DNA of 32,946 nucleotides from a virus. The translations under genes were made by a program, and so were the position numbers. The number at the start of each line of letters is the position of its first letter. The first letter of the stretch is position 1. Location of the stretch: IMG/VR virus record IMGVR_UViG_3300042864_000090, positions 1-32,946 of that record; one strand, 5' to 3'. The notes under the pieces are model-generated. The model worked only from the letters and a program-made list of their open reading frames with translations. It was not told the origin of the DNA and did no database searches. This document shows, one piece after another, positions 1-24,789 of the stretch.

Positions 1-150
1 CGGGTCGAGCACAAGGACGAGATGTGGACACGGCTGATGACCCGCATCCACCGGGTGGAGAAGTCCTTGGAGACTGACAACTGGCCGGCCAAACCCAGCG
101 GGCTGTGCAAATTCTGCCCATGTAAGGGCTTCTGTGAATTTGCGAGTTGA
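1..150 (+). CDS. PD-(D/E)XK nuclease (Cas4/RecB-like), C-terminal end only
   Basis: The reading frame is open from the left edge and stops with TGA at 148-150, so only the last 49 residues are visible. They end in a cysteine cluster (LCKFCPCKGFCEF) preceded by W-P-A-K-P-S-G. This arrangement is typical of the C-terminus of RecB/Cas4-like PD-(D/E)XK nucleases, where clustered cysteines bind an Fe-S cluster or a metal. The catalytic motifs lie outside the window, so activity cannot be judged. In phage replication operons such proteins usually act as exonucleases in recombination or host DNA breakdown. The next gene starts two bases after this stop, so the two are probably co-translated. The family call rests on this tail alone. 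Confidence 0.6.
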   Translation, partial: RVEHKDEMWTRLMTRIHRVEKSLETDNWPAKPSGLCKFCPCKGFCEFAS

Positions 151-152
151 CG

Positions 153-482
153 ATGGCTACCCCAGAGGGCAAGATCAAGACGGCGCTAGACAAGATGTTG
201 AAGGCTGAGCGGGTGTGGTTTTACCCCCCGCAAGCCGGACCATTTGGTAGTGCAGGAATCCCCGACCGAGTTGCGGTCGTGGACGGTTTGTTTGTGGGTA
301 TCGAGTGTAAAGCTGACGCCACCAAAAAGCCCACCGCCTTGCAGATAAAGTGCATGGCGGACATCGAAGCTGCGGGTGGCAAGTGTTTCGTGGTCTATGA
401 CAAGGCCACAATCGAGCAGGTAAGGGAGTGGATACATGCTTGTCGTCGAGTCCGCGAGGGCCGTAGCCCTCAAACTGAGTGA
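153..482 (+). CDS. VRR-NUC domain nuclease
   Basis: A 109-residue protein made of a single VRR-NUC domain, a compact branch of the PD-(D/E)XK nucleases related to FAN1 and Holliday-junction resolvases. Visible motifs are GIPDRV (Asp38), then GIECKAD (Glu51 and Lys53 of the ExK signature), then a Gln at 64 in TALQ, which is the usual order. Stand-alone phage members probably cut branched or flap DNA during replication and recombination. ATG at 153 was chosen over an in-frame TTG at 147 that lies inside the previous gene's end. No clear Shine-Dalgarno is present, so coupling to the upstream gene is likely. The 3' end overlaps the helicase gene by 47 bases. Confidence 0.85.
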   Translation: MATPEGKIKTALDKMLKAERVWFYPPQAGPFGSAGIPDRVAVVDGLFVGIECKADATKKPTALQIKCMADIEAAGGKCFVVYDKATIEQVREWIHACRRVREGRSPQTE

Positions 483-1995
483 CCCACACAGGGTCTTAGA
501 GTGCATACCCAAGGCGCGGCAGCTGCCGTCCGACCCACGCATCGTCGTGGTACCCCATCGGGTAAGGGAGATGCAGCGCCTAAGGGAACTGGGGTTCAAC
601 CCACCATCGCCCATTGGATACCAGTACGACTGGCCCGGGCGCTTCACGCCATACGAGCATCAAAAGTCCACGGCCGAGTTCCTTACACTACACAAGCGCT
701 GCCTTGTGCTGAACTCGATCGGCACGGGCAAGACTGTCAGCGCCCTGTGGGCTGCCGATTACCTGATGAACATGGGCGTCATCAAGAAAGTGCTGATCCT
801 GTCGCCGCTGTCCACCCTTGAGCGTGTGTGGGGTGACGCCGTGTTTAAGGAACTCTACCACCGCAAGTCGGTGACCCTCTATGGTGACGCCAAGCGTAGG
901 CTCAAGCTGCTTAACACCGAGGCCGACTTCTACATCGTCAACCACGACGGTTTCCCGATCATCGCCAAGGAGGCACTGGACAAGTTCGACCTTGTCATCA
1001 TCGACGAGGCAGCGGTCTACCGGAACCCATCGACCAAGAGGTTCAAGCAGTTCTATCGCTGGCTGCAGGTGCAACCGCACATGAACCTATGGCTGATGAC
1101 AGGGACACCCACCCCGAACGAACCCACCGATGCGTGGGCACTGGCTAAGCTGGTGGACAGCCCGCACATGAGCAAGAGCTACACTGGCTTCCGTGAGCAG
1201 GTCATGATGAAGATGGGCCAGTGGAAGTTCATCCCTCGCCCCGAGAGCGTGGACGTTGTGAAGCACGTGCTCCAGCCATCCATCCGCTTCACCCGTGAGG
1301 AGTGTCTCGATCTGCCGGACACTGTGACCCAGACGCGTAAGGTGCCACTGACCCCTGAGCAGGCCAAGCACTTCAAGCAGATGGTCAAGCAGCTGGTCAC
1401 TGAGGTGGCAGGTGGTACGATCACCGCTGTCAACGAAGCAGTAAAGGCACAGAAGCTGATCCAGATCGCACTGGGTGTAGCTTACGGGGAGAATGGAGAG
1501 CTGCTCGAACTGGACTGTGGTCCGCGGATCAGCGCCGTGAAGGAAGTCATTGAGGAAGCAGGAGAAAAGGTGATCCTCTTTGTTCCCCTAACGGGAACTC
1601 TGCGGATGTTGGAGCGCGAACTGTCCAAGGACTGGACGGTCGGCGTGGTCAACGGCGAGGTGTCGGCGTCTAAGCGCAACGACATCTTCCACAACTTTCA
1701 GAACGCCCGCGACCCTCGTATATTAATTGCACATCCTGCGACAATGGCGCATGGATTGACCTTGACAGCGGCGTCAACCGTTGTATGGTATGGTCCGATC
1801 ACTAGTAATGAACAGTATGTTCAGGCCAACGGTCGTGTCGAACGTATCGGCAAGAAGCATGTGTCGAACGTCGTACACATTGAAGCAACTGAGGTGGAGC
1901 ATCGTATCTATGAACGTCTGCAGAATAAGCAGAAGTTGCAGGGTGTGCTGCTAGACCTGATAGCCCAGATGGGAAAGGAACAACATGTCGTTTAG
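436..1995 (+). CDS. SNF2-type DEAD/DEAH-box helicase
   Basis: A 519-residue superfamily 2 ATPase with both RecA-like lobes. The first lobe has a Q-like YEHQ (73-76), Walker A SIGTGKT (94-100), Walker B IIDEAA (188-193) and motif III TGTP (222-225). The second lobe has motif V around AHGLTLTAA (438-446) and motif VI QANGRVERIGK (463-473). The layout matches phage SNF2-like helicases, which remodel or unwind DNA during replication, recombination or repair. An AAGGGAG Shine-Dalgarno lies just before the ATG. The gene starts inside the VRR-NUC gene, and its last 11 bases overlap the next gene. Sitting beside two nuclease genes, it could work with them on branched DNA; this is inferred from order only. 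Confidence 0.92.
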   Translation: MLVVESARAVALKLSDPHRVLECIPKARQLPSDPRIVVVPHRVREMQRLRELGFNPPSPIGYQYDWPGRFTPYEHQKSTAEFLTLHKRCLVLNSIGTGKTVSALWAADYLMNMGVIKKVLILSPLSTLERVWGDAVFKELYHRKSVTLYGDAKRRLKLLNTEADFYIVNHDGFPIIAKEALDKFDLVIIDEAAVYRNPSTKRFKQFYRWLQVQPHMNLWLMTGTPTPNEPTDAWALAKLVDSPHMSKSYTGFREQVMMKMGQWKFIPRPESVDVVKHVLQPSIRFTREECLDLPDTVTQTRKVPLTPEQAKHFKQMVKQLVTEVAGGTITAVNEAVKAQKLIQIALGVAYGENGELLELDCGPRISAVKEVIEEAGEKVILFVPLTGTLRMLERELSKDWTVGVVNGEVSASKRNDIFHNFQNARDPRILIAHPATMAHGLTLTAASTVVWYGPITSNEQYVQANGRVERIGKKHVSNVVHIEATEVEHRIYERLQNKQKLQGVLLDLIAQMGKEQHVV

Positions 1996-2212
1996 CATCG
2001 AGAAGGATGTCCCGCTGCCGGAGAAGAACGTGCGCTGGAAGTATCCATTCGACCAGATGGAAGTTGGTGACAGCTTCTTCGTCGTGAACAAGGACACCAC
2101 GCAGATGTCTGCGCTGTGCAAGCGGGCTGGCAAGCGTCTCGAAGGGCGCTTCGTTACCGCCAAGGTGGAGAAGGACGGCCAGTCTGGCGTCCGGGTCTGG
2201 AGGATGGAATGA
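1985..2212 (+). CDS. Small conserved phage protein, unknown function
   Basis: A 75-residue basic protein. The segment YPFDQMEVGDSFFV followed by a lysine/arginine-rich stretch (ALCKRAGKRLEGRFVTAKVE) resembles small phage proteins that recur beside replication genes. I know of no assigned function for them. The start overlaps the helicase stop by 11 bases. The stop overlaps the next start as ATGA, so translation is probably coupled on both sides. The basic charge would allow nucleic-acid contact, but no fold is recognised. Confidence 0.75.
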   Translation: MSFSIEKDVPLPEKNVRWKYPFDQMEVGDSFFVVNKDTTQMSALCKRAGKRLEGRFVTAKVEKDGQSGVRVWRME

Positions 2213-2610
2213 GCTTTACAGTCGAGCAGGTGGTGGAGACCTATCTCAAACTGCGGAGGAAGAAGGAGGCAGTCGAGAACGAGACCAAGGAGAAGGTCGC
2301 TGAACTTAAGGCCAAGATGGCCAAGCTGGAAGCATGGCTGATGCAGAAGGCTGACGACGAGGGTGTTACCTCATTCAAGACTTCGGCTGGCACGGCCTTC
2401 GTGACCAGCACTGACTTCGCCAACGTGGCGGACTGGGACGCTGTGCTCACCTTCATCAAGAACCATGACGCGTTCGACATGCTGGAGCGGCGTGTGTCCA
2501 AGACCGCGGTCCGGTCTCACATGGATGAAACTGGCGACGTGCCACCGGGGATCACCTACGGCACCAAGCTGGGCATCAACATCCGCAAGGCATCAGGGGG
2601 TGACGAATGA
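2209..2610 (+). CDS. Coiled-coil protein of the replication operon, unknown function
   Basis: A 133-residue protein. An upstream in-frame ATG at 2116 would add 31 residues, but those codons lie inside the previous gene. The ATG at 2209 overlaps the previous TGA as ATGA, so it is preferred. Residues about 8-44 are rich in E, K, L and A and look like a long charged coiled coil. A compact C-terminal part ends in YGTKLGINIRKA. This layout, and the position between helicase and ssDNA-binding-like genes, recalls phage Gp157-like or Gam-like (nuclease-inhibitor) proteins. No diagnostic motif supports either, so the function stays open. Confidence 0.72.
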   Translation: MSFTVEQVVETYLKLRRKKEAVENETKEKVAELKAKMAKLEAWLMQKADDEGVTSFKTSAGTAFVTSTDFANVADWDAVLTFIKNHDAFDMLERRVSKTAVRSHMDETGDVPPGITYGTKLGINIRKASGGDE

Positions 2611-2885
2611 GGTGGCTTCGCAGAATGGTGCGCCGCTGGTTGGAAGGACCCATGCCAGATGCGGTTGGCCGTGGTCACGGTGAGCACTCGACGCTGCAGA
2701 TGCTGACCTCCATGGATAACCCGGCGACGCACGTCGTGACACCGATCCGCAATGGCTTCCTTATCAGCACTCGCGCCTACAACCCCAATGGTCCGGACAA
2801 AGTCGACGCAGTCTACGCAGCAAGCGCAGACGAACTCGGGCCCCTGCTCGTCGCCGAGATGGCGACGCAGCGTCTCACCAAGTAA
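2607..2885 (+). CDS. Hypothetical protein
   Basis: A 92-residue protein starting in an ATGA overlap with the previous gene. The first 13 residues (MRWLRRMVRRWLE) are strongly basic and amphipathic. The remainder has a short beta-like middle (THVVTPIRNGFLIST) and an acidic/alanine-rich helix near the end. There is no membrane segment, signal peptide or known motif. Its place just before the ssDNA-binding-like gene suggests a minor role in DNA metabolism, by position only. Confidence 0.65.
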   Translation: MRWLRRMVRRWLEGPMPDAVGRGHGEHSTLQMLTSMDNPATHVVTPIRNGFLISTRAYNPNGPDKVDAVYAASADELGPLLVAEMATQRLTK

Positions 2886-2902
2886 CGCTCAGAGAGGACA
2901 AC

Positions 2903-3883
2903 ATGAGCAACATCGTACCTTCCAACATCCAAATCCCGGCCCACCTCGCACGTGTGGTCGGTCAACCCTCTGCTCTGTCGGCCGCTCTGGCCGGTGGTCT
3001 GGCAGGTGGCGCGGAGTTCCCGCGCATCTCCATCAAGGGCAGCCGCTTCCGCATCATCGAGGGCGGCGCCGAGACTGTGCTTGAGGACACCAAGCTGTCG
3101 GTGGTGATCGTGGGTGCCAACCCGCGCCTGTCCAAGACGTTCTACGCCAAGCAGTGGACCCCGGACAGTGAGCCCTCGTCGCCTGACTGCTACTCGCTGG
3201 ACGGCATCCGCCCGCATGGTGAGAGCACCGACCCGCAGAACGACACCTGCGCTGGCTGCCCGATGAACGCATGGGGTTCCAAGATCACGCCGATGGGCCA
3301 GCAGATCAAAGCCTGCGCCGACCAGAAGCGTCTGGCTGTCGTGGCATCCAACGATCCCGAAGGCCCGGTGTACCTGTTACAGATCACCCCGGCTGCACTC
3401 AAGGGTCTGGGTTCCTACCAGAAGGAACTGCAGATGCGGGGCATCCCGGTCGAGGCAGTCAAGACCGTGGTCACCTTCGACACTGACGCCAGCTTCCCCA
3501 AGCTGATGTTCAAGTTCGGCGGCTTCCTCGACGAGGGTGAGTACGCTGCGGTCGAAGGGCTGTTCGGTTCGGACAAGGTGCTTGAGATCACTGGCGAGAA
3601 AGAGACCGCCGCTGAACCCAAGGCTGAGCCCAAACCTAAGGCTGCCGCCAAGCCCGCCGCTGTCGCTGCCAAGCCCAAGCCTGCTCCGGTCGAGGAAGAA
3701 GCCCCGGCACCCAAGCGTGGGTTCGGTGCGAAGGCTGCACCCGTCGAGGAGGAAGAAGCTCCGGCCCCCAAGCCTAAGGCTGCTGCACCTAAGCCCGCAG
3801 CACCCAAGGTGGAGAAGGCTGGTGCTGGCTCCCTCGCTGATGAGATCGCCAACCTGATGTCGGACATGGACGATGATGACTGA
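2903..3883 (+). CDS. Probable ssDNA-binding protein with zinc site and acidic tail
   Basis: A 326-residue protein in three parts. Residues 1-232 are folded and contain four cysteines (C96, C116, C119, C138), with CAGCPMNAWGS followed by KACADQKR. That spacing suggests a zinc site, as in T4 gp32-like ssDNA-binding proteins. Residues about 233-306 are a low-complexity Pro/Ala/Lys/Glu linker containing a duplicated APVEEE(E)APAPK segment. The end is an alanine-rich helix followed by the acidic tip DMDDDD, the kind of tail SSBs use to contact partner proteins. A GAGAGG Shine-Dalgarno precedes the ATG. The ssDNA-binding call is inferred from architecture and from the neighbouring helicase and primase; no OB-fold signature can be confirmed by eye. 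Confidence 0.62.
   Translation: MSNIVPSNIQIPAHLARVVGQPSALSAALAGGLAGGAEFPRISIKGSRFRIIEGGAETVLEDTKLSVVIVGANPRLSKTFYAKQWTPDSEPSSPDCYSLDGIRPHGESTDPQNDTCAGCPMNAWGSKITPMGQQIKACADQKRLAVVASNDPEGPVYLLQITPAALKGLGSYQKELQMRGIPVEAVKTVVTFDTDASFPKLMFKFGGFLDEGEYAAVEGLFGSDKVLEITGEKETAAEPKAEPKPKAAAKPAAVAAKPKPAPVEEEAPAPKRGFGAKAAPVEEEEAPAPKPKAAAPKPAAPKVEKAGAGSLADEIANLMSDMDDDD
3683..3772 (+). repeat. Duplicated APVEEE(E)APAPK segment in the ssDNA-binding-like linker
   Basis: Two near-copies of an 11-12 codon segment (3683-3715 and 3737-3772) are separated by codons for RGFGAKA. They form part of a long Pro/Ala/Lys/Glu-rich linker. Such linkers easily change length by slippage, and here the repeat probably only spaces the acidic tail from the folded domain. 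Confidence 0.7.
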
Positions 3884-4160
3884 GCAGAAGCGGATCACGT
3901 TCGACAAGATCGACGCGCTCCGTAGGCACATGCTGCTCACGCACACCCAGATGGCAAGGTTACTCGGGGTATCCCGGGTAACCTACTACAACTGGAAAAA
4001 AGAGGGCCACCCTGCTGAGCGAAATCTCACGAAAACACGGGCTATCCTAAAGGACATGCTCCGTGTTATGACAGAACACGACTGGCCGGCGCCGGCCGTT
4101 GTGGCGATGACTCAGGATGAGCGACTGATCGAGCTACAGAAGTTGCTTCTCGTAAGATAA
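3873..4160 (+). CDS. Helix-turn-helix DNA-binding protein
   Basis: A 95-residue basic protein with a clear helix-turn-helix at about residues 24-44 (HTQMARLLGVSRVTYYNWKK), of the Cro/C1 type. The segment LLGVSRVTYYNWK holds the turn and recognition helix. It starts at 3873, or at the adjacent ATG at 3876, inside the acidic tail of the previous gene, so translation is probably coupled. It is the last gene before the 46-base gap upstream of the primase-helicase, where it could act as a local regulator. Target and sign of regulation are unknown, and no operator repeat was recognised. Confidence 0.82.
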   Translation: MMTEQKRITFDKIDALRRHMLLTHTQMARLLGVSRVTYYNWKKEGHPAERNLTKTRAILKDMLRVMTEHDWPAPAVVAMTQDERLIELQKLLLVR

Positions 4161-4161
4161 A

Positions 4162-4186
4162 GGTAGGGGGCCCCGCGCCCCCTATC
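4162..4186 (+). other. GC-rich hairpin in the gap before the primase-helicase gene
   Basis: GGTAGGGGG (4162-4170) can pair with CCCCCTATC (4178-4186), including one G-U pair, around a 7-base loop. The predicted stem is strong, but no T-run follows, so a simple intrinsic terminator is unlikely. An mRNA processing site, a decay barrier, or a partial attenuator of the primase-helicase gene are the plausible roles. The only other content of the 4161-4206 gap is the AGGGTAGGG ribosome-binding region. Confidence 0.5.
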
Positions 4187-4206
4187 GCACCGAGCAGGGT
4201 AGGGAC

Positions 4207-7085
4207 ATGGACACAACAGAGTTCTTGGGCAGAGTGCTGCCCGACGAAGGGTATTACGTAGCGACAGTTATCAACCCGGACAAACGCGCGCAGAAGTCTT
4301 ATGAGACCATAGACGCGCTGTCCAATGCGGTAGTCCGGATCGACATCGCTGGTGGTAACGTGTACTACGCAATGTCTTCATTCAACGAGGCGGGCAACCG
4401 CAAGCAGGTAAACGTCAAGCAGACCAAGGCTCTGTTCATTGACATCGACTGTGGCGAGGAGAAGCCCTTCGCCGACCAACGCGAGGGTGCCAGAGCCCTC
4501 AAGACATTCCTCAAAGCCAGTGGCCTGCCGCCACCCATGATCGTCAACTCCGGCCGTGGTCTCCACGTGTACTGGCCGTTGACCGAGGCGCTTGCGCCCG
4601 CTGACTGGCAGCCTCTGGCTGATGCACTCAAGGAGTGCGCGAAGCAGAACGGCTTCGAGATCGACCCGGCAGTTACCGCCGACAGCGCCCGAGTGTTGCG
4701 CCCCGTGGGTACCCACAACCCTAAGAACGGGGCGGAAGTGGTGCTCATCAAGGACGCACCCGACAACGATCCCGACGACCTACGCCAGCTCCTAGCAAAC
4801 TACATGCACCGTGCGCCCACCAAGCGGGGCTTCGCTGCGCAGGCCAAGCCAGTGTCGAGCATCACGGGAGCGCTTGCGTCCGGGCAGGAGTACGAGCCAG
4901 CCGTTGCGGGCAACATCATCGAGGGCTGCGCACAGGTGCGCTGGGCTGCCAACAACCAAGGGGATGTGGAGGAGCCGTTCTGGTATGCGCTGCTCGGCAT
5001 CGCTGCCTTCTGCGACGACCCGGAAGGGACGGCCGTTGCGTGGTCAGACCAGCACCCGGACTACGACTATAGTCGTACTGTCCTCAAGGTGGAGCAGTGG
5101 AGAGGCAAGGCCACAGGACCAACCACCTGTGCCAAGTTCAAGGACCTGCGCTCGGCTGGCTGCAACAAGTGCCCCTTCGCTGGCAGGATCACCTCACCCT
5201 GCCAGATCGGACGCAAGCTGACTGAGGCCGAGGGTCCGGCCGAGGACGCGCTCGACGAAGTGGCACGGGAAGTGCCCATGCCTCCGGGCTTCAAGCGTGT
5301 GGCCAAGGGCGGCATCGCCCAGACCATCGACGACACGGACATCATGGTCGTACCGTTCGACCTGTATCCTGTGAGCTACGGCAAGGATGAAGCCCTTGGC
5401 TACGAGGTCGTCCGCTTCCATTGGAAGCGCCCGCACAAGGGCTGGCAGGAACTCAAGTTCAGGCAAGCCTACCTCGCCGACGGCAACCGTGAGTTCCCCA
5501 CAGCAATCGCTGACCAAGGTATCGTGCTGCCCTTCAAGGGCATAACCGAGAGGTTCCAATACATGCTTCGCTCCTACATGGATGAACTACGCAGGCTCAA
5601 GACAACCACCAACCTCTACACCACGCTGGGGTGGAAGGAGGAGAACACGCTGTTTGTTATCGGCGACAAGCAGGTGCGCAAGGATGAGCAAGGCCAGACC
5701 GTGGTCGAGGATGTCGTGCTGTCCTCTGCAGTGCAGCGGATCAGCACCGGGATGTATGGCGCGAAGGGTGACCACGAGAAGTGGGTCAAGATCACCAAGC
5801 TCATGGAAGCTGCCGGGCTCAAGGCTCACATCTTTGCCATGGGTGTGTCCATGTCCGCGCCGCTCTACCAGTTCACCGGGCTCAAGGGTGCAGTGCTGTC
5901 GCTCTACGGGCCGACAGGCAGCGGCAAATCTCTGGCTCAGCTGGCGATGCAGTCCGTCTGGGGCAACCCTGTCGAGTTGCACTACCAATCCAAGTACACC
6001 CAGAACGCGCTGTTCACGCGCCTGTCCTTCTACAGCAACCTGCCTATGACGATCGACGAGACCACCATGATGCCCGACAAAGAGGTCGGCGACTTCATCT
6101 ACGGTGTGACGCAGGGCCGGGACAAGAGCCGCCTCAATGCCCGGGTAGAGGAGCGTGACCCTAAGACATGGGCCGCACCCGTGACGCTCTCGACCAACCG
6201 CCCTATGGGTGGCAAGCTGCTGGCTGCCACCTTCGAGACTGACGCGCAAATGGCCCGGATGCTGGAGCTTTCGTTGGAGAGTTCGGACATCTTCACCAAG
6301 AGCACGGATGTGGGGCGCAAGTTCTACAACACCATCACCCGCAACTATGGACATGTCGGCCTGCTGATCCTGCAGTGGCTGGTGGACAAGGGCGAAGCCG
6401 CCATCGTCAAGATGATTGCCGACCACATGGTCGCCTTTGAAAAGAAGTACAAAGTCCGGTTCACCGGAGAGGAGAGGTACTGGGAAGTCATGATCGTGCT
6501 GTCTGACCTGATGAACATGGTTGCCGTGCAGAATGGCTGGGTGGACTACGACTACGCCAAGGCCACTGAGTTCGCACTGGAGCAGGCTGGCATGATCCGC
6601 CGCAGCATCAGCGCCGCCAAGCTGGATGAGTTCGACTTGCTGGGTGAATACCTCAACGAGATGCGTGCTGCCACTGTCCTCGTCTCCCACATCGACGGCC
6701 ACGATCTGCCGATCTACGATCCCAGCAGGCTGCCGCGCGCAGAGGTCCGGGTGCGGTTCGATCTGTACCGCAAGGCCACCAATGCCAAGAACGATCGCGG
6801 CATCCTGCTCGTGGACCGCACCCACTTCCGTCAGTGGATGGCCAGCCGGGGTGGAGACTGGAAGAAGTTTAGCGACGTGCTCGTGTCGGAAAGCATCGAC
6901 GCCACACCGTCATCCAAGAAGGCCATCCTTGGCAGGGGCATCCCCGAACTGCGGCTCCCTCAGACCTACGTGGTCGGTATCAACATCGCCCATGACCGGC
7001 TCAACACTCTCTTGGAGAATGAGGATAACCGGCCGGAGAGCCTGACGCTTGGACAGTTGCGCCCAGTTACGCGCCCGCAGGTTCA

Positions 7086-7089
<4 letters not shown>
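4207..7089 (+). CDS. Primase-helicase (AEP-like primase fused to DUF927/D5-like helicase)
   Basis: A 960-residue two-module replication enzyme. The N-terminal part has archaeo-eukaryotic primase-like features: a metal-binding DxD in LFIDIDC (Asp79, Asp81), SGRGLHVYW with His120, and a DSARVLRPVGTHNPK block (159-173). Four cysteines follow (C308, C319, C322, C332), a likely metal site. The C-terminal part resembles DUF927/D5-type SF3 ATPases, with Walker A GPTGSGKS (568-575) and Walker B MTIDE (614-618). It probably makes primers and unwinds the phage replication fork. ATG 4207 follows an AGGG-containing site. The stop at 7087-7089 overlaps the stop of the convergent virion gene. The helicase call is firm and the primase call good; the role of the cysteines is inferred. 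Confidence 0.88.
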
Positions 7090-15029
<7,940 letters not shown>

Positions 15030-21980: not shown

Positions 21981-22835
21981 TCACCCGAGCAGTTTAGCCA
22001 ATGTTTTTGGGCCGGCTACGCCGTCGGCGGTAAGTCCGTTTGCAGTCTGCCATTTCTTGAGTGCGGCCTCAGTGCCGGGACCGAAGTCCCCGTCGGCCGA
22101 CAAGCCCAGCTTGGCCTGCATTTTCTTTACGTCGTCACCCTTAGAGCCACGGCGCAGCGTCTGCGTTACGGCGTCGGTGATCTGCGGATTGACAGGGACA
22201 GTGATCTTGCCACCCAGAGCAGCCACGGCCTTGGAGTAACGCGCCTGACGGTCTGCAAGGCCGATGTCTCCGCCGTTGATCTTCTTGGTGAGGGCAGCCA
22301 CGTTGCCGGTGTCGGCGATGGCGTTCAGCTTGTTGGTGTTCCAGAACCACAGAGCCGATGCCAGCGCGCCTTCCTTGGTCTCGACCCACACAGCAGCTTC
22401 TTCCGCCGTCATGTCGTAGTCCTTGGCGAAGCGCGTATAGTTATCCCGCCCGGTCAGCTGTTTGAGCCCGCGACCGCGGAAGCGCCAGCCGTCACCGGGA
22501 TGCACGTTGCCCAGCTTCGAGGTGCGGAACTCGTCCATGTAGACATAGTTGGCAATCTTCTCAGGGTTCTTGGCGTACTCGGCTGCGTTGCGCTTGCCGG
22601 GACCAAAGTAGCGCGGGAAGACCTTGTTCAGCGTTTCCTCACGGTAGTTGAGGTTCTCGCTCATGGCGTTGAAGTCCATCGACTCGTGAGCGCACTGCGA
22701 GATGAACCCGGCGATGCGCTGGTCAGTCGTGATGTCGTACTTCGGCAGTGCTTTGTTCAGCTCCTCGCACCAAGCCTTGATCTCTTTGTTGGTCGGGATC
22801 ATTGCGGCCAGCTGGCCTTCGGTAATCAGGCTCAT
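21981..22835 (-). CDS. Endolysin: GH19-type muramidase/chitinase-like domain plus peptidoglycan-binding domain
   Basis: A 284-residue peptidoglycan hydrolase. The N-terminal domain has the GH19-type pattern of phage lysins: AHES with the likely catalytic Glu51, SENLNY with Glu60, and WRFRGRGLKQLTGRDNY (117-133). Residues about 224-284 form a PG_binding_1 domain (GSKGDDVKKMQAKLGLSADG...GPKTLAKLL). There is no signal peptide, so release probably needs the nearby holin-like protein. GGAGA precedes the ATG. It would cut the glycan chains of the cell wall at the end of infection. The catalytic residues appear present. Confidence 0.92.
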   Translation of the reverse strand: MSLITEGQLAAMIPTNKEIKAWCEELNKALPKYDITTDQRIAGFISQCAHESMDFNAMSENLNYREETLNKVFPRYFGPGKRNAAEYAKNPEKIANYVYMDEFRTSKLGNVHPGDGWRFRGRGLKQLTGRDNYTRFAKDYDMTAEEAAVWVETKEGALASALWFWNTNKLNAIADTGNVAALTKKINGGDIGLADRQARYSKAVAALGGKITVPVNPQITDAVTQTLRRGSKGDDVKKMQAKLGLSADGDFGPGTEAALKKWQTANGLTADGVAGPKTLAKLLG

Positions 22836-22845
22836 CTATGGTCTC

Positions 22846-23253
22846 CTATTCGCACCACGAGGACTTGGCCTCGCCTTTGTATGGACGGGCTAGGCCCGCA
22901 GAGATCAGGCTTTGAGCGAGGCTCTGGTGGTCTAGGTAGACCTCGCCCAGCACCCGGCCACCGTACTTGTCCCACTTGAGGATTTTGATATCGACCTCGA
23001 GGGCGTTGGCCACAGCGTCCTTGGTGAACGCGCTGGCCTTCTTTGCTAGGGCTGCCTCGGCATCGCACTGTGCGCGAGGTGCCTTCTCGGGCGTATCGAT
23101 GCCCATCACCCGGATCGAGAGCTTGGGCGGAAGGGGCGACGGCAAGAAGTCCACCGCAATCTCCACAGTGTCGCCGTCGATAACACGCGTGATATCATAG
23201 GGCGTAGCGGTCGCGCAGGTCGCGGACAGGAACAGGGCAACGAGCCACCTCAT
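22846..23253 (-). CDS. Exported staphylococcal-nuclease-like thermonuclease
   Basis: A 135-residue SNase-family protein. An N-terminal signal peptide (MRWLVALFLSATCATA, probably cut after residue 16) points to export to the periplasm or beyond. The catalytic set looks complete by comparison with S. aureus nuclease: Asp28 in VIDGDT, Arg48 and Asp53/Glu56 in RVMGIDTPE, and Arg100 in YGGR. The family cuts DNA and RNA with calcium. The gene starts in an ATGA overlap with the upstream small gene and lies ten bases before the endolysin, so it belongs to the lysis cassette. Clearing host DNA at lysis or attacking DNA of competing phages are possible roles; both are inference. Confidence 0.9.
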   Translation of the reverse strand: MRWLVALFLSATCATATPYDITRVIDGDTVEIAVDFLPSPLPPKLSIRVMGIDTPEKAPRAQCDAEAALAKKASAFTKDAVANALEVDIKILKWDKYGGRVLGEVYLDHQSLAQSLISAGLARPYKGEAKSSWCE

Positions 23254-23465
23254 TTCTTTTTCACCCTCTTGGTGACTGCACCAAGCACAGCTTCCTTGGC
23301 CATGTCCTTACCCATGCCGCCGAGCAGATCGCCCACGTTGCCCGTGGCCGCAACCTTGATTGCGTTCTCCACCGGGTCAGGCAGGTTCACCTTGTCCAGC
23401 ACTGCGTCCACGGCCTTCTCTTTGAGCTTGCGGCCCATGAACATTCCGATAATGCGTCCGATCAT
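23250..23465 (-). CDS. Small protein of the lysis cassette, unknown function
   Basis: A 71-residue protein, coupled at both ends by ATGA overlaps (holin-like gene upstream, nuclease downstream). The N-terminal MIGRIIGMFMGRKLKEKAVD is short, hydrophobic then basic. The middle is Ala/Gly/Val-rich and the end is VTKRVKKK. There is no full membrane span, so at most it is peripheral or amphipathic. It may modulate holin timing, but nothing in the sequence proves this. Confidence 0.65.
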   Translation of the reverse strand: MIGRIIGMFMGRKLKEKAVDAVLDKVNLPDPVENAIKVAATGNVGDLLGGMGKDMAKEAVLGAVTKRVKKK

Positions 23466-23728
23466 TCTTGTGGCTCCTGTGGTTCGTCGCGTTTGCGGTT
23501 GTTGCCTGCAGCCATCACGCCGCCCAAAGCACCAGTGATAAAGCTGGCAATCGGGGTGAGGATGGCAAACAGCGCCCGGTCGTTTTCTGAACTCTCACCC
23601 AGAGGCTGGGTCACGAAAACCAAGCTGTAGAGAATGATGAAGATGCTGCCGCCCAAGATCATGGTGAGCGACACGCCGATGAAGTAGCGCAGCTTACTTT
23701 CCAGATAGTCAGGATCGTTCTTTTTCAT
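23462..23728 (-). CDS. Putative holin, two membrane segments
   Basis: An 88-residue protein with two hydrophobic spans, about 14-38 (FIGVSLTMILGGSIFIILYS) and about 52-75 (ALFAILTPIASFITGALGGV), and a charged C-terminus (NNRKRDEPQEPQE). Size, topology and place directly upstream of nuclease and endolysin fit a class II-type holin that opens the inner membrane for the signal-less lysin. It is coupled by ATGA overlaps on both sides. Another small membrane gene in this cassette could be the true holin, so the call is moderate. Confidence 0.68.
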   Translation of the reverse strand: MKKNDPDYLESKLRYFIGVSLTMILGGSIFIILYSLVFVTQPLGESSENDRALFAILTPIASFITGALGGVMAAGNNRKRDEPQEPQE

Positions 23729-23916
23729 GGCGCGGCCCCTCCAGTTAAATCGTCAGCGCAGTTCTTGGTACGAAGGCAGATCGGCGGCTGACACTCAAGC
23801 GCGCTCCAGTTTGCCGGGTCTTGACACGGATAGCGATACCAGCCGTCGCCGCTGAACCAAAACAAGACGCCTATTGCGGCCGCGGCGGCAGGCCATATCC
23901 AATGTTCGAGTGCCAT
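23725..23916 (-). CDS. Small single-span protein with Cys-rich exported tail
   Basis: A 63-residue protein starting at the ATG that shares a base with the previous stop (TAATG). An in-frame ATG further upstream would overlap that gene far more and is rejected. The first 22 residues (ALEHWIWPAAAAAIGVLFWF) span a membrane. The tail contains four cysteines (CQDPANWSALECQPPICLRTKNC), likely paired by disulfides in the periplasm. No lipobox is seen, so a classical outer-membrane spanin lipoprotein is not supported. It may still contribute to envelope disruption, given its place before the holin-like gene. Confidence 0.68.
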   Translation of the reverse strand: MALEHWIWPAAAAAIGVLFWFSGDGWYRYPCQDPANWSALECQPPICLRTKNCADDLTGGAAP

Positions 23917-24407
23917 TACCACCTCCCCAAATAGCGGCCCCAGAAGTACAGACCAAAGCCTGCAATAACGTTTGTCGCCAAGATGATGCCTGTCCAAAGC
24001 GCAGCTTCTAGGATGCTTTCGATCAGTTCTTTGCGACGGTAGACCTGTTCGCGCTGTTGTTCACGGACCCTGCGCTCGATGTTGATGAACTGCTGCCACG
24101 CGTCGTGGCCGTAGCTGTAGGTGATGAGCTGTTTTAGCTCCTTGCGCTGCTGTTCGCATTGTTTCTGAGCGGCGAATATGTCAATAGCGCTTTTTTGAGT
24201 ATCACCGCCAAACAACGTCTTGAATACGCCGGGAGGCTCGTTGGCTTTTTCCGCAGCGTAAGCAATGTCAGAAACAGCCTTGCCCCATTCGGATAGCTGA
24301 GAAGCCATGTCCTGAATTTCACGGCCAGCGGCGATGCCCTGCTTTAGCAGGCCAAACGCCTTGCTGCCGATGCTAACAGCCATTCCAATGGAAACTGGGT
24401 CGAACAT
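23916..24407 (-). CDS. Coiled-coil membrane-anchored protein of the lysis region
   Basis: A 163-residue protein. The chosen ATG (24407-24405) follows GGAG with 6-base spacing and overlaps the previous stop as TGATG. A longer frame starting at 24512 is only the shadow of the 47-residue gene. The N-terminus has a short hydrophobic helix (FDPVSIGMAVSIGSKAFGLL). Residues about 80-130 are charged helix (AAQKQCEQQRKELKQLI, then RRVREQQREQVYRRKELIE). The end has a membrane span (ALWTGIILATNVIAGFGLYF) and GRYLGRW. The order soluble-coiled coil-membrane anchor is the reverse of a typical inner-membrane spanin. Function unknown. Confidence 0.68.
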   Translation of the reverse strand: MFDPVSIGMAVSIGSKAFGLLKQGIAAGREIQDMASQLSEWGKAVSDIAYAAEKANEPPGVFKTLFGGDTQKSAIDIFAAQKQCEQQRKELKQLITYSYGHDAWQQFINIERRVREQQREQVYRRKELIESILEAALWTGIILATNVIAGFGLYFWGRYLGRW

Positions 24408-24550
24408 CACAAACTCCAGAACGGCGGGCATGGGTAGAGCGGATGAACCGCCAGCGCCACGTCCGCAGTATACCTGCAAATCTTGACAAATACCATGCGC
24501 CCATCGATCCACAGGTGGGTATAAGCCACCCAGATCAGCGGCACGTTCAC
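24407..24550 (-). CDS. 47-residue overlap-defined gene, unknown function
   Basis: A short reading frame that fills what would otherwise be a 139-base gap. It starts with GTG overlapping the TGA of the upstream gene (GTGA) and ends TGA overlapping the next ATG (TGATG). There is no separate Shine-Dalgarno, so translation would depend on reinitiation. The peptide is rich in Val, Trp, Tyr and Pro, has two cysteines (KICRY and YPCPPF), and has only weak hydrophobic stretches. Both junctions match the style of the whole arm, which is the main reason to accept it. No family is recognised. Confidence 0.6.
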   Translation of the reverse strand: MNVPLIWVAYTHLWIDGRMVFVKICRYTADVALAVHPLYPCPPFWSL

Positions 24551-24789
24551 TTTGTCAGACTTCGCAGCAGCGCGTCGATCTTGTTGTCAAGGTTGTCGAT
24601 GCGCGTGATGAGCATGTTCATGCTGGACTGTACGTCAGTCTTTGTAACGTAATCCTTGGCCACTTCCTCGCGGGTGCGGTTTATCAGGATTTGCAGCCGC
24701 TTGATTTCTTCGGCGTAGCCCCGCAGCACCCAGCTTACAAAGCCGAGTGCTGCAGTGAGGCCAAAGTTCCAGAGCATCTCAGTCGGCAT
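24547..24789 (-). CDS. Small N-terminal membrane anchor plus coiled coil protein
   Basis: An 80-residue protein with a hydrophobic N-terminus (MLWNFGLTAALGFVSWVLRG) followed by a helical stretch with heptad spacing (EEIKRLQILINRTREEVAKD, then TDVQSSMNMLITRIDNLDNK). This is the layout of inner-membrane spanin-like or membrane-tethered scaffolding proteins. GAGGGA precedes the ATG. It is the first clearly membrane-type gene of the lysis region after the tailspike group, which favours a role in envelope disruption. The spanin idea is architecture-based only. Confidence 0.7.
   Translation of the reverse strand: MPTEMLWNFGLTAALGFVSWVLRGYAEEIKRLQILINRTREEVAKDYVTKTDVQSSMNMLITRIDNLDNKIDALLRSLTK

Follow-up and report, generated by a model that had tools for sequence, protein, structure and literature searches.

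An optional gene for a predicted exported SNase-family nuclease in the lysis operon of freshwater phages

The nuclease described here resembles the thermonuclease of Staphylococcus aureus (Nuc) and the secreted bacterial SNases in its predicted fold, its catalytic residues and an N-terminal secretion signal. It is about 31% identical to the S. aureus enzyme, but has a shorter C-terminus, an extra PLPPKL-type loop and a pair of cysteines (Cys63 and Cys134), and unlike these secreted enzymes it is encoded by a phage, within a lysis operon. Nucleases that are likewise both phage-encoded and exported are known from prophages of Streptococcus pyogenes (Spd-3, Sda1 and Sdn); these have a different nuclease fold and are not SNases. 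A role in lowering viscosity after lysis has been proposed for them: the extracellular DNase degrades bacterial DNA after prophage induction and is said to cut viscosity and to promote the spread of virions (PMC3629212). Their genes, which serve the lysogen, are located adjacent to paratox at the attR end of temperate phages (PMC6224593), whereas the gene studied here is an insert inside the lysis operon.

An engineered parallel is the autonucleolytic E. coli strain, in which an SNase with a signal peptide is held in the periplasm. There it is harmless during growth, in contrast to a cytoplasmic nuclease, which is lethal, and upon homogenisation it degrades the host DNA and lowers viscosity (PMC5674116). 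That system is man-made, and responds to mechanical breakage rather than to phage lysis. The cytoplasmic phage SNases of cyanophages, staphylococcal phages and phage Abba have a PF00565-type core in common with the present protein; the Abba gene lies between holin and lysin A, and the others are mostly located away from lysis genes. In the open-access literature that we searched, we found no report of a lysis cassette that includes an SNase or a secreted nuclease. Neither the SNase family nor exported DNases of phages nor the proposed effect on viscosity is new; what appears to be new is the recurrence of an exported SNase gene as a one-gene insertion in a lysis operon.

A nuclease gene in a lysis cassette

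We analysed a 32,946-nucleotide stretch of viral DNA (IMG/VR record IMGVR_UViG_3300042864_000090, positions 1 to 32,946), referred to below as the window. It carries replication genes at 1-7089(+) and late genes at 7086-32909(-), which converge at about 7086. An ORF of 2647 aa at 7086-15029(-) probably encodes a large polyvalent protein, in which the HExxH-like motif HESMGH suggests a metalloprotease domain.

The nuclease ORF, at 22846-23253(-), begins with ATG and encodes 135 aa. Its product matched the Pfam SNase family PF00565 with 48.1 bits against a cut-off of 21 (E 1.7e-12) and phrog_452, annotated as endonuclease (E 6e-22), and could be aligned by phmmer with the solved S. aureus nuclease (E 2e-8). 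In this alignment D28, R48, D53, T54, E56 and R100 correspond to D21, R35, D40, T41, E43 and R87 of the S. aureus enzyme, its known catalytic set, and the six phage residues were invariant across 18 aligned phage proteins. The AlphaFold model (mean pLDDT 87.8) has an SNase fold, composed of an OB-like β-barrel and helices, and the top Foldseek matches of this model were all SNases (E 3e-10, TM 0.64). By alignment and predicted structure, the product is an SNase-family nuclease with a complete catalytic set. An earlier sequence-only reading of the window had named Asp28, Arg48, Asp53, Glu56 and Arg100 as this set, and the alignment confirmed the residue numbers.

The same reading had claimed a signal peptide. 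In the N-terminus, MRWLVALFLSATCATA followed by TPYD, a positive n-region, a hydrophobic core and an A-x-A site can be recognised. When a rule was applied that asks for a positive n-region, a hydrophobic 9-mer and small residues at -3 and -1, 108 of the 109 distinct nuclease homologues passed it, compared with 13.5% of the other ORFs in these loci (n = 1,964). The single homologue that failed has the core and the cleavage site, and its positive charge is missing. Several unrelated N-terminal sequences occur among the homologues, all with signal-peptide properties retained. A signal-peptide-like N-terminus is thus conserved, as claimed, and the nuclease is predicted to be exported by the Sec pathway. 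The signal part is variable in sequence; the mature part had a median dN/dS of about 0.06, which corresponds to strong purifying selection.

Both C63 and C134 were found in 106 of the 109 distinct homologues, neither of them in two intact copies and one frameshifted copy, and just one of them in no homologue. The cytoplasmic phage SNases examined (P-RSM4, Abba, Fpv8 and metagenomic relatives) have neither the signal peptide nor the cysteine pair. The joint retention or loss of the two cysteines, together with the absence of the pair from the cytoplasmic proteins, points to a disulfide formed after export, and a C63-C134 disulfide is therefore probable. In the frameshifted copy (L178:1901-2222) the shift lies between residues 60 and 75, through either decay or an assembly error.

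The genes of the cassette are all on the (-) strand and tightly packed (Table 1). Membrane-associated proteins of 80, 198, 90 and 88 aa are encoded in this order, followed by g71, the nuclease and the endolysin. The start codon of the nuclease overlaps the stop codon of g71 as ATGA, and the endolysin starts 10 bp past the nuclease stop codon, which in relatives is joined to the endolysin site as TAGGAGA or TGAGGAGA. Within the cassette, no promoter-like or terminator-like sites were found beyond those expected by chance. An export signal or TM-like segment was looked for in the endolysin and none was found, so the endolysin would depend on the holin, whereas the nuclease has its own predicted exit. 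The sequence-only reading had placed the nuclease between a holin-like operon and the endolysin. The endolysin side of this statement held; the holin-like operon is plausible but weaker, as the 88-aa holin candidate has two TM segments and its match to phrog_9987 is marginal.

Table 1. Features of the lysis cassette and the nuclease gene, in window positions
Feature	Position	Strand	Basis or remark
Small protein, N-terminal hydrophobic stretch and coiled-coil-like tail; first conserved cassette gene	24547..24789	(-)	phrog_7885, phrog_462, synteny
Membrane protein found in some of the cassettes, TM at its C-terminus	23916..24512	(-)	weak phrog_32327
Small cassette protein, N-terminal hydrophobic stretch and Cys-rich tail; start probably near 23913	23725..23997	(-)	synteny
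Holin candidate, 88 aa	23462..23728	(-)	TM segments 21-39, 53-71; phrog_9987 holin E 0.009; phrog_25359 E 3e-11
g71, small basic protein upstream of nuclease; also in nuclease-less cassettes, abutting endolysin	23250..23465	(-)	cassette comparison
Predicted Sec signal peptide, residues 1-16, MRWLVALFLSATCATA	23206..23253	(-)	rule-based; cleavage after A-T-A
Mature nuclease domain	22849..23205	(-)	alignment to S. aureus nuclease; catalytic residues invariant
D28 codon	23170-23172	(-)	catalytic
R48 codon	23110-23112	(-)	catalytic
D53 codon	23095-23097	(-)	catalytic
T54 codon	23092-23094	(-)	catalytic
E56 codon	23086-23088	(-)	catalytic
R100 codon	22954-22956	(-)	catalytic
Span from C63 (23065-23067) to C134 (22852-22854)	22852..23067	(-)	paired non-catalytic cysteines
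GGAG, Shine-Dalgarno-like site for endolysin, overlapping nuclease stop (TAGGAGA)	22843..22846	(-)	sequence
Endolysin, GH19-type catalytic part (PHROG) and C-terminal PG_binding_1	21981..22835	(-)	PF01471; phrog_181 E 1e-66

Nuclease and endolysin genes in related phages

A scan of IMG/VR with the nuclease returned 80 loci, in 78 of which an endolysin was the next gene within 87 bp, while the other two ended at a contig edge. The IMG/VR scans were then pooled and duplicates removed, which gave 103 distinct nuclease loci; 4 of these were truncated and 99 were counted. An endolysin adjoined the nuclease by the distance rule in 98 of the 99, with gaps of about 10 bp, and in the sole miss (L141) the endolysin is the next gene too, its distance being inflated by a partial match. 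The SNase-endolysin adjacency, which the sequence-only reading had proposed to survey in related phages, is therefore conserved. Across the nuclease loci the adjacent endolysins were 38 to 93% identical. Because the endolysin falls to 38% identity while the nuclease remains at least 84% identical (first scan), the link is more than overall genome similarity. The nuclease-endolysin arrangement is not due to chance and is a real conserved feature. The carriers of the insert are many freshwater phages. The flanks of most loci have hardly a gene in common with the window, yet most of the relatives resemble one another; an initial view of the cassette as present in many phages of unrelated background was toned down, as most of the well-flanked loci form one broad group by shared genes.

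A reverse scan with the endolysin gave 79 loci, with the nuclease upstream in 44 and missing in 35. In 31 of the 35 nuclease-less loci g71 directly abuts the endolysin (the junctions inspected show the ATGA overlap again), and in the other four (L147, L150, L153, L154) a different, membrane-protein-like gene lies upstream. With g71 as the query, the nuclease was present in 69 loci and missing in 9. To judge from a comparison of occupied and empty sites, the nuclease gene, together with a new ribosome-binding site, was inserted exactly between g71 and the endolysin, or was removed from there. The endolysin tree requires at least 14 changes in nuclease presence, 8 of which are forced by well-supported branches. 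By this distribution the nuclease is an accessory that a phage lysis operon may carry or lack, and, since almost half of the related endolysin loci are without it, it is apparently not needed for lysis. A substitute exported nuclease was sought in the 35 nuclease-less loci and not found.

Two further ideas were rejected. The first, that g71 is an immunity or inhibitor protein of the nuclease, fails as g71 is equally present in nuclease-less cassettes. The second was a recent host origin of the gene: the nearest relatives in GTDB representatives were mostly about 33-36% identical and that on plasmids 38%, and no close cellular relative of the cassette-form nuclease was found among GTDB genome representatives or plasmids.

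More distant phage SNases were found both beside and away from lysis genes. A divergent exported sub-family, about 47% identical and with the signal peptide retained, lies directly before the endolysin in four loci (L152, L336, L337, L338), and in L345 and L346 an exported SNase lies directly after an i-/o-spanin pair (phrog_739, phrog_812). In T4-like contigs an exported SNase adjoins gp46/47-like SbcCD genes or UvsX, and in Rhizobium phages the SNase is near nucleotide-metabolism genes, among them ribonucleotide reductase, in both cases away from lysis genes. The linkage to lysis is thus not universal, and exported phage SNases extend beyond these cassettes. The sequence-only reading would have been abandoned had no export signal been predicted or had homologues lain away from lysis genes in all relatives; only some of the more distant exported SNases do so. 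In five T4-like loci (L354, L356, L359, L360, L362) the exported SNase is right behind the gp46/47-like SbcCD genes, and in some cases a further small exported protein comes next. Arthrobacter phage Abba (L363:3729-5335; holin, SNase, lysin A), an unrelated phage of a Gram-positive host, was considered as an independent exported case and rejected, as its SNase lacks a signal peptide; the cysteine pair is missing from it as well.

Possible roles of the nuclease

The sequence-only reading had listed clearance of DNA at lysis, degradation of the incoming DNA of competing phages and nucleotide scavenging as functions, without choosing among them. Clearance at lysis fits best with the conserved slot, the predicted export and the engineered precedent, and scavenging fits least. 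On the clearance reading, the nuclease would be translated late in infection together with the holin and the endolysin. Sec would carry it to the periplasm, and there it would fold with its disulfide. Periplasmic storage would separate it from replicating phage DNA, and cytoplasmic Ca2+ would presumably be too low for SNase activity, which would provide a form of Ca2+ control. Once the holin, the endolysin and disruption of the outer membrane open the cell, the nuclease would meet Ca2+ together with released host and unpackaged nucleic acid and degrade it, while packaged genomes would be shielded by the capsid. The phage would gain a lysate of lower viscosity, in which virions are not caught in host DNA. 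The phage arrangement would in this way reproduce the engineered periplasmic-SNase design, by analogy: the enzyme would be made with the lysis proteins, be stored outside the cytoplasm, and meet its substrate only when the cell opens.

We consider the chances about even that a periplasm-held nuclease cuts host nucleic acid at bursting, so thinning the lysate and freeing virions. The position in the operon suggests co-expression, not function, and in dilute freshwater a viscous lysate should be less of a problem than in dense cultures, which counts against clearing. The many related endolysin loci that lack the gene and the exported SNases located away from lysis genes weigh against it too. More tentatively, and with somewhat less than even confidence, we propose that in some cassettes of Gram-negative type the holin, endolysin and spanin are joined by one more, optional lysis function: a periplasm-stored nuclease that digests host DNA at bursting. 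Its gene would come and go as a single insert, and is seen next to endolysin or spanin genes in phages of distinct backgrounds.

The main rival is that the periplasmic nuclease destroys incoming DNA, either superinfecting phage genomes or DNA that recombines with the resident phage, and so acts in superinfection exclusion. Export and strong conservation would suit such a role, frequent gain and loss is typical of genes for phage-phage competition, and the T4-like exported SNases, away from lysis genes, make a non-lysis role possible. However, membership of the lysis operon implies late synthesis and leaves little time for exclusion, tailed phages usually deliver their DNA via a protected channel, and a generic competition gene would not need a constant slot before the endolysin. 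We therefore regard this role as unlikely.

Unlikely too, and ranked just behind, is an outward version of lysate clearing, in which the nuclease acts after release on the extracellular DNA of biofilms, aggregates or mucus around neighbouring cells. It would require the same anatomy as lysate clearing, and the exported DNases of streptococcal prophages do act extracellularly (PMC3629212). A review calls active degradation of extracellular DNA by phages plausible, though unreported (PMC9145820). In open water, however, the nuclease from one small cell would dilute at once.

It is improbable that the gene is a selfish passenger which brings no benefit to the phage and is kept only by frequent transfer. 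Its optional, repeatedly gained and lost presence and the one frameshifted copy (L178) would agree with this, but the low dN/dS, the retention of catalytic residues and signal-peptide properties, and a slot and orientation that are always identical would not be expected of a passenger. SNases cleave RNA as well as DNA, and the nuclease might instead supply phage DNA synthesis with nucleotides taken from the nucleic acid of the host, or act as an RNase on host RNA. This is the least probable of the roles considered: one roseophage SNase has been classed with nucleotide metabolism (PMC11981692) and the Rhizobium phage SNases lie near ribonucleotide reductase genes, but predicted export would put host DNA and RNA out of reach until the membrane is breached, phage DNA synthesis is over after lysis, and the benefit would come after the death of the host.

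Near-identical natural lysis cassettes with and without the exported nuclease offer a direct test of whether spilled host DNA hinders phage release and whether phages act on such DNA. The nuclease gene could also serve in the preparation of clear, low-viscosity phage lysates.

Other genes of related cassettes

Two further genes were noted in relatives. A second exported protein (about 255 aa, MERNCPMSYLKKTVALLCLSVSAAHAEPTM...) is encoded slightly upstream of the nuclease in L057:2437, L011:8119 and similar loci that lack g198. In lysis cassettes of relatives, a small protein in which TM segments come after an EF-hand-like DxDGDGxxSxxE motif lies next to holin-like genes (L338:3942-4319, L345:4088-4438), and such a protein is also found upstream of the endolysin in L147, L150 and L154; a Ca2+-sensing lysis component would be of interest.
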